From Actinomycetota bacterium (GTDB taxonomy: Bacteria; Actinomycetota; Actinomycetes; Nanopelagicales; Nanopelagicaceae): a DNA stretch of 32,737 bases. The notes under the pieces were generated by a model. The model was not told the origin of the DNA and did no database searches. It worked only from the letters and a program-made list of their open reading frames with translations. A program made the translations under genes and the position numbers. Below, piece by piece: positions 5,410 through 9,795 of this stretch (positions are counted from its first letter, which is position 1; every line of letters begins with the position of its first letter). The stretch lies in the NCBI GenBank assembly GCA_016870835.1, contig VGAG01000012.1, positions 1-32,737 of the forward strand. Direction: 5' to 3'.

Positions 5410-6237
5410 TTACTGTCCTACGCGGAAGCGATAGAACTTTGTTATTGCAACGCCACCTTCGGTTGCTACCTGTTGGACGCTCTTCTTCTGGTCTTTAGCG
5501 AAGGCCTGCTCAAGTAGAGCAACTTCCTTCACAAAGCCAGTCACGCGACCATCCACGATCTTTGCAATCGCGGCATCAGGCTTACCTTCATTACGAGCAG
5601 TCTCCTCAGCCAGGCGACGCTCATTTGCAATTACATCAGCAGGTATCTCATCGCGTTGTAGGTACGTTGGCGCAAAGGCGGCAATATGTTGGGCCACATC
5701 TTTTCCAACTTCGCTATTTGCTTTGTTCATACCAACAATAACGCCAACTTGTGGTGGTAGGTCGGGGCTAGTGCGATGTAGATAAAGTGCATTTGCGCTT
5801 GAATCAATCACAGCAATCCGGCGAAGTTCAATCTTCTCACCGAGGGTTGCATTCGCTTCATCAATCGCGGCCTGGACGGATTTCCCATTAGGCAGATTTG
5901 AGGCAACAAATGCCGCTAAATCAGATTGCTTTGAAGCGAAAAGATGTGAGACCAACTCTTCTGCCACAGCTTGGAAGCGCTCGCCCTTAGCAACGAAATC
6001 TGTTTCGCAATTCAACTCAAGCAAGACCGCAGCCCCGTCATCGGACTTTGCAGTAACTAGCCCGTTTGAAGTTGCTCGCCCTTCGCGTTTTGTGACGCCC
6101 TTTAAGCCCTTTACACGGATAACTTCGATTGCCTTATCAAAGTCGCCACCAGTCTCATCGAGTGCTTTCTTGCAATCGAGCATTCCGGCAGCAGTTACCT
6201 CGCGAAGACGCTTTACATCATCTGCTGTGTAAGCCAC
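5410..6237 (-). CDS. tsf: elongation factor Ts
   Basis: A 275-residue guanine nucleotide exchange factor for EF-Tu. The N-terminal UBA-like domain is recognisable (VKRLREVTAAGMLDCKKAL, about residues 9-26) and the TDFV motif that contacts EF-Tu is at 79-82. The core is followed by a C-terminal part ending in VGQ. The start codon is GTG at 6237-6235, and the rpsB stop TAA occupies the three bases immediately before it, leaving no gap. The upstream Shine-Dalgarno is poor, so translation is probably coupled to rpsB. This placement right after rpsB is nearly universal in bacteria. Confidence 0.97.
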   Translation of the reverse strand: MAYTADDVKRLREVTAAGMLDCKKALDETGGDFDKAIEVIRVKGLKGVTKREGRATSNGLVTAKSDDGAAVLLELNCETDFVAKGERFQAVAEELVSHLFASKQSDLAAFVASNLPNGKSVQAAIDEANATLGEKIELRRIAVIDSSANALYLHRTSPDLPPQVGVIVGMNKANSEVGKDVAQHIAAFAPTYLQRDEIPADVIANERRLAEETARNEGKPDAAIAKIVDGRVTGFVKEVALLEQAFAKDQKKSVQQVATEGGVAITKFYRFRVGQ

Positions 6238-7062
6238 TTAGGAACCTGCACTTTCAGTTGCGCCTTCAGTTGCTGGCGCTCCAAGTAGATCCTTCTCCCA
6301 ATCTGCAAGAGGTTCACCAGCTGCAACAGTTTCCGCTCCAGCCTTTGCGGCTTCGGCCGCTTCCTTTGCGATGTTGGCAGAGCGCGCCTGTAGTCCAGCG
6401 GCTATCGCATCAGCAATAACGCGAGTTAAAAGTTGGATTGAACGGATTGCATCATCATTTCCAGGAATCTTGAAATCAACTTCATCTGGGTCGCAATTAG
6501 TATCAAGGATTGCGATGACTGGGATTCCGAGTTTCTTCGCCTCAGCAACAGCGAGGTGCTCAAGCTTTGTATCTACAACCCAGACAGCCGCAGGCAACTT
6601 TGTCATATTGCGAATACCGTCGAGGTTCTTATTTAGCTTCTCGCGCTCACGACGGAGCAAGAGCAATTCCTTCTTAGTTAATACTTGATCATTTGAAGCT
6701 TCTAGCGCTTCTAATTCTTTTAGACGCTGAACGCGCTTATAAACAGTCGGGAAATTTGTGAGCATTCCACCGAGCCAACGCTCAGTCACGTATGGCATAC
6801 CAACGCGCTTTGCCTGGGTCTGGATTGGTTCGTGTGCTTGTTTCTTAGTGCCGACAAAGAGGATGTTTCCACCCTTTGCGACTGTATCTTTAACAAAGTC
6901 ATATGCCTTATCAATAAGTGCAAGTGACTGTTGGATATCGATTATGTAGATACCGTTGCGCTCGGTGAAAATAAAGCGCTTCATCTTTGGATTCCAGCGA
7001 CGAGTCTGGTGTCCGAAATGAACACCGCTGTCGAGGAGTTCTCGCATTGTTACAACCGCCAT
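6238..7062 (-). CDS. rpsB: 30S ribosomal protein S2
   Basis: A 274-residue S2 protein starting [19 protein letters not shown], the standard opening, with the conserved [11 protein letters not shown] region next. It binds the 30S head/body junction and is needed for mRNA docking. An in-frame ATG 18 nt upstream (7080) would lengthen it, but AAGGAG lies inside that extension, eight bases ahead of the ATG at 7062. The shorter start is therefore chosen. The Ala/Glu-rich C-terminal extension (about residues 230-274) is common in actinobacterial S2. The long upstream leader contains several hairpins and may mediate feedback control. Confidence 0.97.
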
Positions 7063-7242
7063 GGCGGCACGCTCCTTCATGCGAACTTTTTTCGTTCGCC
7101 TCGGTTGGTGAGCTAGCGCTTTGCTAACTCTCTAGCGTCTTGGCACCGACTGGCTCATTAGAGCCGGACCGAAATGGCTTCCTCTTTATCTCGCGAGCAG
7201 CGAGGAGAGGTAGACGCGTGAAGTCACAGATTGCTCTGTGCG
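7063..7242 (-). ncRNA. structured 5' leader of rpsB (candidate cis-regulatory RNA)
   Basis: From the predicted transcription start near 7242 to the rpsB ATG there are about 180 nt able to form several local hairpins. They are: a 6-bp stem closed by a GCAA tetraloop at 7225-7240; a two-part stem at 7181-7210 (AGAGG/CCTCT outer, CTCGC/GCGAG inner); a 5-bp GGCTC/GAGCC stem at 7152-7165; GCTAG/CTAGC at 7112-7136; and GCGAAC/GTTCGC with an A-rich loop at 7081-7099, one base before the Shine-Dalgarno region. Autoregulation by S2 through the rpsB leader is known in E. coli. Whether this RNA does the same is inference. No large ORF of its own is credible here. Confidence 0.45.
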
Positions 7243-7248
7243 GAGCGC

Positions 7249-7279
7249 ATACTACCTGGGTAGATTGAAGGCATGGCAA
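7249..7279 (-). promoter_or_regulatory. predicted rpsB promoter
   Basis: On the minus strand TTGCCA (7279-7274) and TAGTAT (7254-7249) are separated by 19 bp, matching -35 and -10 consensus with a slightly long spacer. The -35 overlaps the glpX start codon on the other strand, so the two divergent genes share very little control DNA. The predicted start of transcription is near 7242. Confidence 0.4.
7261..7266 (+). promoter_or_regulatory. possible -10 box of glpX
   Basis: TAGATT fits the TANNNT pattern and ends six bases before the glpX ATG, the spacing expected when transcription starts at the start codon. No good -35 is visible at 16-19 bp, so the call is weak. Confidence 0.25.
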
Positions 7280-8229
7280 ATGCAGTTCCCTCGCGAAACC
7301 TCGCCTTGGAACTTGTCCGGGTAACTGAAACTGCCGCAATCGCAGCCTCAAGATGGGTCGGCCGGGGCGATAAAAATGAAGCTGATCAATCCGCCGTCGA
7401 TGGCATGCGCAAGATGATCAACACCGTCGCTATGGATGGAATCATCGTGATTGGTGAGGGAGAGAAGGACCAAGCCCCGATGCTTTATAACGGTGAGCGC
7501 GTTGGCGATGGAACCGGACCCAAAGTAGATGTTGCTGTAGATCCCATAGATGGAACCACACTCACATCAAAGGGAATGGCAAATGCAATTAGCGTCATCG
7601 CACTTGCCGAACGCGGCACCATGTTTGATCCCACTGCAATTTTCTATATGCGAAAGATCGCCGTAGGTCCGGAGGCTGCTGGGGTAATAGATATAACTGC
7701 GCCGACAGATGTAAACCTAAAGAAGATTGCTAAGGCCAAGGGTTTAGATGTCGAATCGCTAACTGTCGTATTGCTTGACCGGCCACGTCATGATGAATTA
7801 GTAAAAGAAATCCGCGCCGTTGGATCCCGAATTAAATTTATAACCGATGGTGATGTTGCCGGTGCGGTAGAGGCGGCCAGGCCAGGAACTGGTATTGATG
7901 TTCTGATGGGAATTGGAGGCACACCCGAAGGAATTATCGCGGCCTGTGCCATGAAATGCCTTGGGGGCGAGATCCAAGGAATCCTGCATCCTCGAAGTGA
8001 TGAAGAGCGGACAAATGCAACGAATAAGGGGTTTGACCTGACAAAGGTTTTACAAACGAATGACTTAGTGAAAGGTGAAGATGTCTTCTTCGCTGCAACC
8101 GGAATTACGGATGGCGAATTACTTTCGGGAATCCGTTACACAAGTACTCATATCGAATCAAATTCTTTAGTGATGCGTTCAAGATCGAAGACAATTAGAA
8201 CGATATATAGCGAGCACCCGCTCGTTTAG
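7273..8229 (+). CDS. glpX: fructose-1,6-bisphosphatase class II
   Basis: A 318-residue GlpX-type phosphatase that removes the 1-phosphate from fructose 1,6-bisphosphate in gluconeogenesis. In actinobacteria this class is usually the main FBPase. Metal and substrate motifs are visible: GRGDKNEAD at 30-38, IGEGE at 60-64, and the DPIDGT signature at 90-95. The [18 protein letters not shown] region lies near the middle. The start is an ATG with GAAGG only one base upstream, unusually close. A TAGATT hexamer six bases before the ATG could instead be a -10 giving a nearly leaderless mRNA. It is divergent from rpsB and convergent with xerC, with 15 bp between the two stop codons. Confidence 0.95.
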
Positions 8230-8244
8230 TTAAACTCTTTTGGT

Positions 8245-9156
8245 TCAAGCTCTTGGATGGGCTTGTTCGTAAGCTTTCTTCAATCTCTCTTCGGTCACAT
8301 GAGTGTAAATCTGGGTAGTTGAAAGAGAGGAGTGGCCGAGAATCTCCTGTACGGTTCTTAAATCAGCACCCCCTTCAAGTAAATGGGTAGCGGCTGAATG
8401 GCGAAGTGCATGTGGCCCAAGTCTTAGATCACGTCCAATCGCTTCAGTTGCCTCATAGACAACATCTCGCACTACGCGTTGATCAATTCGCTTTCCTCTC
8501 GAGCCAAGAAAAAGTGCAGCCCCACTTGAATAATTTGCCAACTTAGCTCTTGCCTCATTTAGCCATCTATCGATTGCGCGTAAAGCGGGAAGCCCGAGAG
8601 GAACAATGCGCTCTCGATTACCTTTTCCGATTACGCGAAGAGTGCACCGCTCGCGATCAACATCGCCAAGGTCAAGTCCAACTAGCTCTGAGACACGGAT
8701 TCCGCTTCCATACAAGACTTCTACTATCGCAAGATCTCTAATTGAATTTGGAGACTCATCTTCCGATGCTCGCTGCTCAAGATATGCGATTACTTCGGAT
8801 GCGCTATCGATATCCAAGATTTCTGGAAGAGCGCGTTCAGGTCTTGGCGCAACTAAATCTCGCCCGATGTCTTTCGCAAGCCACCCATGTTTTGCGCCCC
8901 AATATGTAAAGGCCCTTATTGAAACAACGCGACGAGTAATTGAGGCTCTCGCTGCTCCACGAACTTGAAGATTAGCTAGCCAGGAGCGGAGATGATTGAG
9001 TTCTAATTGTGAGAATTCCGTGATGCCCAACTCATTTATATGGGTAAGCATGGACTCTAAATCAGCCAAATATGCACGGACCGAATTTTCCGAGAGATTT
9101 CGCTCGGTTCGAAGGTGCTCTCCGTACGCGCGCTCGAGATCTTGGTCAAGCGACAT
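8245..9156 (-). CDS. xerC: site-specific tyrosine recombinase XerC
   Basis: A 303-residue tyrosine recombinase with an N-terminal core-binding domain (about 1-100) and a C-terminal catalytic domain. The catalytic set is complete: Arg154 (GSGIRVSEL), Lys178 (VIGKGN), His249 and Arg252 (GPHALRHS), His275 (LGHSS) and Tyr284 (TQIYTHV). Such proteins resolve chromosome dimers at dif. The length, absence of neighbouring mobile genes, and position close to rpsB (as in other actinobacteria) favour the housekeeping XerC over a phage integrase. XerD is not in this window. The start ATG lacks a strong Shine-Dalgarno. Confidence 0.9.
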   Translation of the reverse strand: MSLDQDLERAYGEHLRTERNLSENSVRAYLADLESMLTHINELGITEFSQLELNHLRSWLANLQVRGAARASITRRVVSIRAFTYWGAKHGWLAKDIGRDLVAPRPERALPEILDIDSASEVIAYLEQRASEDESPNSIRDLAIVEVLYGSGIRVSELVGLDLGDVDRERCTLRVIGKGNRERIVPLGLPALRAIDRWLNEARAKLANYSSGAALFLGSRGKRIDQRVVRDVVYEATEAIGRDLRLGPHALRHSAATHLLEGGADLRTVQEILGHSSLSTTQIYTHVTEERLKKAYEQAHPRA

Positions 9157-9188
9157 AGCAAAAGGTTACTCGTCTTTATGGCTGGGGG

Positions 9189-9217
9189 TTAATAGACACA
9201 GCGTTGCTAATAAGCAA
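9189..9217 (-). promoter_or_regulatory. predicted xerC promoter overlapping an inverted repeat
   Basis: Minus-strand TTGCTT (9217-9212) and TATTAA (9194-9189) lie 17 bp apart, a good sigma-A-like arrangement about 33 bp ahead of the xerC ATG. A perfect 6-bp inverted repeat, GTTGCT/AGCAAC with a 4-base centre, spans 9203-9218 and covers the -35. It could be an operator. It has no T-run and is unlikely to be a terminator. Confidence 0.4.
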
Positions 9218-9311
9218 CACTAGAGCCAAGCTGATTTCAGAGACTGTGGATTGAATCCCGCTCTTTGTCAGAAGTGAGTGCGGTAATGCGCACACATTGA
9301 ATGGAGCAAAG

Positions 9312-9551
9312 TTGAAGATTGAGTTAGTCGTGAGTGACGATTGCCTTATCCCCCAATTAACAAAAGTTGAAGGACTTGTTAGGGTCTTAATAGGTATTCA
9401 GAATGACTTTGATGACATCCTCGATCTCTGCGCCGGTAACTTAAGTAATGATGAGATTGCTCATGTTCATAAACTCTGGTCTGATGATGAGTTTCCGCGA
9501 AATTTTCGGCGCGAAGGCCCAAATTTAATTATTACTTCCCGCGACGACTAA
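9312..9551 (+). CDS. small hypothetical protein
   Basis: A 79-residue acidic, probably cytosolic protein of unknown function, with no membrane segment, signal peptide or motif I recognise. The start chosen is TTG at 9312 because GGAG lies five bases upstream. An in-frame TTG at 9297 would add five residues, and the nearby ATG at 9300 is in another frame and stops after four codons. The C-terminal half is rich in Asp, Asn and aromatic residues (HKLWSDDEFPRNFRREG). Its 3' end overlaps the convergent XRE regulator by 20 bp. It uses AGG and ATA codons, which are rare in the neighbours, so it may be recently acquired or not a real gene. The reading frame is open and not the mirror of a gene over most of its length, which is the main support. 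Confidence 0.42.
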   Translation: MKIELVVSDDCLIPQLTKVEGLVRVLIGIQNDFDDILDLCAGNLSNDEIAHVHKLWSDDEFPRNFRREGPNLIITSRDD

Positions 9552-9795
9552 GGGCGCCGAGGGCTATCAAAAGAGTTTCGGGAGAAACTTCTAACGCCTC
9601 ACAAAGAGGTGCAATCACATCAATCCCAGGGGTCCGCTCTTGTCTGAAGTACCGCGAGAGCGAGCCCCTGTCTATCCCGGTCTTCTCTTGTAACTCTCCC
9701 AAGCCGGAGAATCCCAACTCACGCATCCGTTTTTGTAACCACTCTGCGCTCTCTTGCGCTGAAACTCGCGAACCTCTTTTGTACGCGTTCGCCAT
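9532..9795 (-). CDS. small XRE-family helix-turn-helix DNA-binding protein
   Basis: An 87-residue protein with a Cro/C1-type HTH at about residues 32-75 (LGELQEKTGIDRGSLSRYFRQ as the recognition unit, then CEALEVSPETLL). There is no extra effector domain, so any ligand response would need a partner. The start ATG has AGGAG five bases upstream, and this Shine-Dalgarno is formed by the cimA stop codon itself (TAGGAG). The gene is therefore the last, translationally coupled member of the ilvB-cimA operon. The function is unknown. Regulation of the operon or of the convergent small ORF is possible but unproven. Repressors of this size also occur as antitoxins, but no toxin partner is visible. Confidence 0.8.
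   Translation of the reverse strand: MANAYKRGSRVSAQESAEWLQKRMRELGFSGLGELQEKTGIDRGSLSRYFRQERTPGIDVIAPLCEALEVSPETLLIALGALSRRGK

Follow-up and report, generated by a model that had tools for sequence, protein, structure and literature searches.

A conserved RNA leader with a pseudoknot precedes rpsB in Actinomycetes and looks like a variant of the rpsB motif

As judged from alignments of related loci, the region directly upstream of rpsB in the DNA analyzed here (a 32,737-nt stretch, termed the window) is a conserved RNA leader, with helices and a pseudoknot maintained by compensatory change and with the topology of a published motif. The leader looks like an actinobacterial variant of the rpsB motif with an extra hairpin, and we propose that it very probably acts as a translational operator of rpsB-tsf that is repressed by ribosomal protein S2.

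We looked into the genetic organization of the locus (Table 1). The genes rpsB and tsf are probably part of one operon, and they are followed by a gene of the amino-acid-kinase family, which from its position we take to be pyrH, and then by frr. On the other side of the leader, the divergent gene glpX starts at 7273 and shares the intergenic gap with rpsB. A preliminary description of this stretch had noted that most gaps between genes were under 40 bp, which agrees with the surrounding open reading frames except for one other long gap near rpsB (375 nt, 9157 to 9531). This gap contains no tRNA and is flanked by a tyrosine-recombinase gene (8245 to 9156, minus strand) and a small HTH gene (9532 to 9795, minus strand).

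The same description had placed a leader with five local stem-loops at 7063 to 7242. These coordinates were correct, with the element on the minus strand, where we recovered all five hairpins between the -10-like box (7254 to 7249) and the rpsB start (7062), including the one reported directly against the Shine-Dalgarno sequence (P5). Beyond these local hairpins, and not noted in the preliminary description, an enclosing helix, P1, contains P2 and P3, and UCGGU from the P2-P3 junction (7172 to 7168) pairs with ACCGA (7105 to 7101) beyond P1, which makes a pseudoknot. The minus-strand leader folded at -68.1 kcal/mol versus -53.7 kcal/mol for shuffled sequences (z, -3.35; 0 of 200 shuffles as low). 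Since the plus strand of the region also gave a z of -2.54, folding energy alone was not decisive.

Table 1 Genes and leader features at the rpsB locus of the window
Feature	Coordinates	Strand	Evidence
tsf, elongation factor Ts, adjoins rpsB	5410..6237	-	Pfam EF_TS
rpsB, ribosomal protein S2, 274 aa	6238..7062	-	Pfam Ribosomal_S2, E 2.1e-96
Shine-Dalgarno AAGGAG of rpsB	7072..7077	-	sequence read
P5 hairpin GCGAAC ... GUUCGC, ends 3 nt before Shine-Dalgarno	7081..7099	-	hairpin score
Pseudoknot 3' strand ACCGA	7101..7105	-	family-invariant, class covariation
P4, linker hairpin between P1 and pseudoknot 3' strand, GAGUUAGC AAAGC GCUAGCUC	7110..7130	-	covariation, linker lengths
P1 3' strand AGACGC	7135..7140	-	family covariation
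P3 overall	7144..7176	-	upper hairpin and lower part
P3 upper hairpin GGCUC UAAU GAGCC	7152..7165	-	family covariation
P3 lower part, CAUU with GGUG	7176-7173 with 7147-7144	-	weak evidence
Pseudoknot 5' strand UCGGU, P2-P3 junction	7168..7172	-	family-invariant, class covariation
P2, variable hairpin	7181..7211	-	centroid fold; variable in alignment A2, pairs left uncounted
P1 5' strand GCGUCU	7212..7217	-	98.9% of cells paired, 5/6 pairs with two-sided change
Near-invariant GACUUCAC, precedes P1	7218..7225	-	alignments of leaders
P0, 5' hairpin CACAGA GCAA UCUGUG	7225..7240	-	fixed-position pairing test
-10-like box TAGTAT, predicted transcription start ~7242	7249..7254	-	TA...T box across family leaders

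We then collected rpsB leaders from relatives of the same genus, where 22 of 24 genomes gave an S2 match, from the same family (145 of 151 genomes), and from 80 loci of named relatives. The nearest named relatives were freshwater actinobacterial MAGs, and one more distant locus carries the title Candidatus Nanopelagicales; we take the family of the window to be Nanopelagicaceae. Conserved blocks and variable stems followed one common order across the family leaders inspected. The 102 family leaders were reduced to 55 without near-duplicates, 47 of which entered alignment A1 and 30 alignment A2; the 25 omitted from A2 were divergent or one column off in MAFFT. A covariance model of the family (R1) recovered all 25 at the leader site, one of them (L027) in a shifted register. 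One subtype among the family leaders opens with GACWUCUCAGYAC; its P1 (GCACUC with GAGUGC) is displaced by one, and after it GACGG replaces CUAGR (L027, L028, L056, L058, L061, L063, L069, L071, L074, L075, L095, L103, and L104). Two further leaders call for comment. L108 comes from a record titled as a Bifidobacterium breve MAG, which is probably mislabeled or contaminated, as its S2 is 80% identical to that of the window; L087 carries an internal direct duplication from the pseudoknot 5' strand through P4, possibly an assembly artifact.

Compensatory changes, whose absence the preliminary description had named as an argument against a function, were plentiful. In the alignment of 30 family leaders, which was made from sequence alone, standard pairs filled 94.8% of 888 cells versus 82.3% after shuffling, and two-sided changes numbered 141 versus 41.7 in shuffles. 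Sliding the partners by 1 to 3 columns lowered pairing from 94.8% to 27 to 38%. P1 was paired in 98.9% of the family cells, in 97.4% in A3, and in 95.4% in A4, where the alignment is fitted by a model (see below for A3 and A4), and five of its six pairs showed two-sided change within the family. The upper part of P3 (91.4% paired) had two-sided changes at all 7 pairs and P4 (96.7% paired) at 6 of 8, versus none for the lower part of P3 (84.2% paired). P2 varied in A2 and was nearly absent from some relatives, with a few nucleotides left in L034 and L043.

The 5' end of the leader is conserved as well. As the longest-helix version of our test for P0 was too loose, we used a fixed-position test, in which at least 4 pairs closed at the same two positions in all 100 family leaders with a box, versus 2.1 expected; the 100 leaders held 50 distinct arm pairs. 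The GCAA tetraloop reported for this hairpin is present in the window, but the identity of the loop is not conserved, as GAAA, GCAA, and UUCG are found along with longer loops. A TA...T box was located 6 to 8 nt before the GCR of P0 in 99 of 101 family leaders, for a median leader length of 185 nt. From this conserved -10-like box, we predict that transcription starts near 7242. A start near 7080, raised in the preliminary description as the other argument against a function, is disfavored because the box is conserved before P0. A sigma-70 scan requiring a -35 element found no box at the leader; our prediction uses a -10-only pattern across relatives.

Within the family, the two strands of the pseudoknot never varied (30 leaders), so support for this element comes from the class. 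Alignment A3 took 33 of 42 class leaders, all from outside the family, along with 6 family leaders and omitted L110, L118, L130, L147, L148, L154, L173, L177, and L189, mostly for their length. The junction and the 3' strand paired in 93.6% of the A3 cells, with 21 two-sided changes versus 4.9 in shuffles, where the ends had been set by eye at AACNN motifs, a choice that favors the pseudoknot. Because of this bias, we made alignment A4 from 40 further loci of many families, which were taken from model matches and aligned by a model without the pseudoknot. In these 40 members, none of them used for the model, the four core columns showed 5 two-sided changes and 1 one-sided change, and 2 of 160 cells were unpaired; the two outer columns were unpaired in 31 of 80 cells. 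Exchanges observed in the class include CUAGU with ACUAG, GCAGU with ACUGC, and UUGGU with ACCAA.

We evaluated how far the leader extends beyond the family. R1 gave 15 correctly placed matches in 53 sources outside the window and the family, and one misplaced match (L144, E 0.75). Under strict filters, R1 matched 29 of 296 class genomes and a class model (R2) matched 242 of 394. The genomes missed by R2 include family genomes in which we had read the leader directly, so the misses partly reflect low sensitivity.

The main variation concerns the region between P1 and the Shine-Dalgarno sequence. The linker from P1 to the pseudoknot 3' strand measures 7 to 9 nt in 21 short leaders from other actinobacterial classes. 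It spans 26 to 31 nt across 30 family leaders and reaches up to 35 nt within the class, where the additional nucleotides form P4 (family mean, -10.5 kcal/mol versus -2.8 kcal/mol shuffled). P4 is absent from 6 of 39 leaders in A3 and from 1 of 40 in A4. Within the single genus Streptomyces, leader L117 lacks P4 while L112 has it, which makes them a natural pair for comparison, and P4 was therefore probably lost on several occasions. The hairpin P5 is a feature of the family (hairpin score, 9.6 versus 5.9 shuffled, in 101 leaders with 61 distinct arm pairs), and some other class members have hairpins at this place. If P5 is looped out, 5.6 ± 3.7 nt separate the pseudoknot from the Shine-Dalgarno sequence, versus 10.9 nt in shuffles. 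Outside the family, class members show a wide scatter of this looped spacing (10.3 ± 10.6 nt); the spacer is too short for a hairpin (4 to 13 nt) in 15 of 40 class leaders, and the pseudoknot directly lies a few nucleotides from the Shine-Dalgarno sequence in most of the Streptomyces and mycobacterial leaders examined.

We then asked how this leader relates to the rpsB motif, in which P1 holds P2 and P3, both of varying length, and J2-3 forms a pseudoknot with a 3' extension after P1 (Meyer 2009, PMC2704228). If S2 leaders had arisen a second time, within Actinomycetes, they would resemble the motif in topology alone, and two profile searches could be read this way: the Rfam t44 model (RF00127) gave no match up to E 10 in 6900 to 7400, with the E. 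coli leader as a positive control scoring 83.5 bits, and a model of short leaders (R3, see below) did not match the window. The whole window held nothing at the Rfam gathering threshold, so that the Rfam check proposed in the preliminary description came back empty. However, intermediates link the two forms. Leaders of other actinobacterial classes have a short form, (G)CACACG...GGUGC...GGCGGAGG-AACC, and all 126 P1 cells of their alignment (A5, 21 of 22 short leaders) are paired. A model of this form (R3) matched the rpsB leader of E. coli where t44 lies (E 2.7e-6) and aligned five of seven P4-less Actinomycetes leaders end to end and correctly placed, each of them individually weak (E 0.86 to 4.2); it did not match the leader of the window. 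Conversely, R2 matched 6 of the 22 short leaders at the correct place (E 4.5e-4 to 0.43), along with 4 misplaced matches up to E 5, and did not match the E. coli leader. One leader from another class that was matched by the Actinomycetes model (L193) has UCGGU and ACCGAG strands as in the window and no P4. Both forms also have in common a (G)CACG before P1, an AGG after P1, and an AACC opening the 3' strand. An independent origin is thus unlikely. Membership in the rpsB motif is judged from architecture and intermediates, and not from a single profile that matches the window significantly.

In E. coli, where S2 autoregulation has been described experimentally, an excess of S2 represses rpsB-tsf via the 5' UTR with the assistance of S1, by a mechanism described as unclear in a review (PMC10931766), which calls the S2 operator conserved "at least" in Gammaproteobacteria. 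A function such as S2 feedback, already suggested in the preliminary description, is supported here by the compensatory changes, the promoter-like box, and the architecture of a published S2 leader. We propose that the rpsB-tsf mRNA would start near 7242 and open with the ~180-nt leader, in which the P2-P3 junction pairs across P1 with the 3' strand just before the ribosome-binding site and forms a compact pseudoknot. S2 in excess over 16S rRNA would bind this pseudoknot and hinder entry of the 30S subunit at the nearby Shine-Dalgarno sequence, which would lower the synthesis of S2 and EF-Ts. By looping out the spacer, P5 would hold the knot a few nucleotides from the Shine-Dalgarno sequence.

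Another ligand, whether EF-Ts, S1, some other factor, or a small molecule, could read a conserved regulatory leader that merely lies upstream of rpsB. EF-Ts is encoded by the adjoining gene, and S1 assists S2 in E. coli (PMC10931766). Against such a ligand, the model matches sit at rpsB, with a single site in the genome of origin for the family model up to E 10 and an S2 start in 70 of 70 loci fetched around model matches, and the fold agrees with that of the leader tied to S2 repression in E. coli. We therefore consider a ligand other than S2 to be quite improbable.

We also considered whether the leader could act as a masking switch, in which the 5' strand of P1 (CACGC) pairs with the Shine-Dalgarno region (GCGUG). 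This pairing belongs to the minimum-energy fold (-73.7 kcal/mol; the nested consensus, with the pseudoknot left out, has -56.1 kcal/mol), but its conservation is close to chance: five pairs are possible in 70 of 102 family leaders versus 55.0 from shuffled strands, and in 14 of 42 class leaders versus 18.0, barely above shuffles in the family and below them in the class. We rejected this masking, which we regard as very improbable. In a longer centroid fold, GCGCUCC (about 7248 to 7242) pairs with the Shine-Dalgarno sequence; we set this pairing aside because GCGCUCC is located at the predicted start or upstream of it. Premature termination was rejected as well, as a scan of the minus strand found no terminator-like site within the leader and one upstream of it (7346 to 7333). 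Finally, the region could be a long 5' UTR of the ordinary kind, or promoter DNA of glpX that overlaps it, as the two genes share the gap, with hairpins that arose by chance; this reading is hardly credible given the compensatory changes in P1, P3, P4, and the pseudoknot and the fixed 5' hairpin.

Returning to the S2 operator, we put forward, more tentatively, that it may extend across Actinomycetes, including Streptomyces and mycobacteria, in a widened form. P4 would be an optional helix inserted after P1, ahead of the 3' strand, that some lineages have lost again, and P5 an optional hairpin that fixes the distance from the knot to the Shine-Dalgarno sequence; repression would then follow a spacing rule, with the S2-bound knot abutting the Shine-Dalgarno sequence, and not masking. 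The Actinomycetes leader would provide a second, distant system in which to test the unclear S2 mechanism, offering natural variants with and without P4 and P5. It is also a case of a streamlined actinobacterium that has retained a 180-nt leader, one that the Rfam t44 model misses.

Among known systems, L17 and L31 leaders have been reported for Actinobacteria (Eckert and Weinberg 2020, PMC7247131). They are a like kind of element, and none of the rows listed from the Table 1 of that article is an S2 leader. No account of an S2 leader in Actinobacteria turned up in our literature search; an earlier one may exist. The t44 RNA is likewise an rpsB leader, and by eye it has the same layout of P1 and pseudoknot, with GGGGU and ACCCC as the pseudoknot strands in E. 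coli. The description of the rpsB motif in Meyer 2009 (PMC2704228) lists Alpha-, Gamma-, some Beta-, Delta-, and Epsilonproteobacteria, Cyanobacteria, and Firmicutes, and Actinobacteria are not in that list. Compared with the motif as given there, the leader of the window is alike in lying directly upstream of rpsB, its start being predicted, in its long enclosing P1, which is paired across family and class, and in P2 and P3, a pair of variable stems that P1 encloses and of which either can be short or absent. J2-3 likewise pairs with a 3' extension, which in the window is reached across the inserted P4. The leader differs from the motif in having P4 in the linker and, in the family, P5 before the Shine-Dalgarno sequence.
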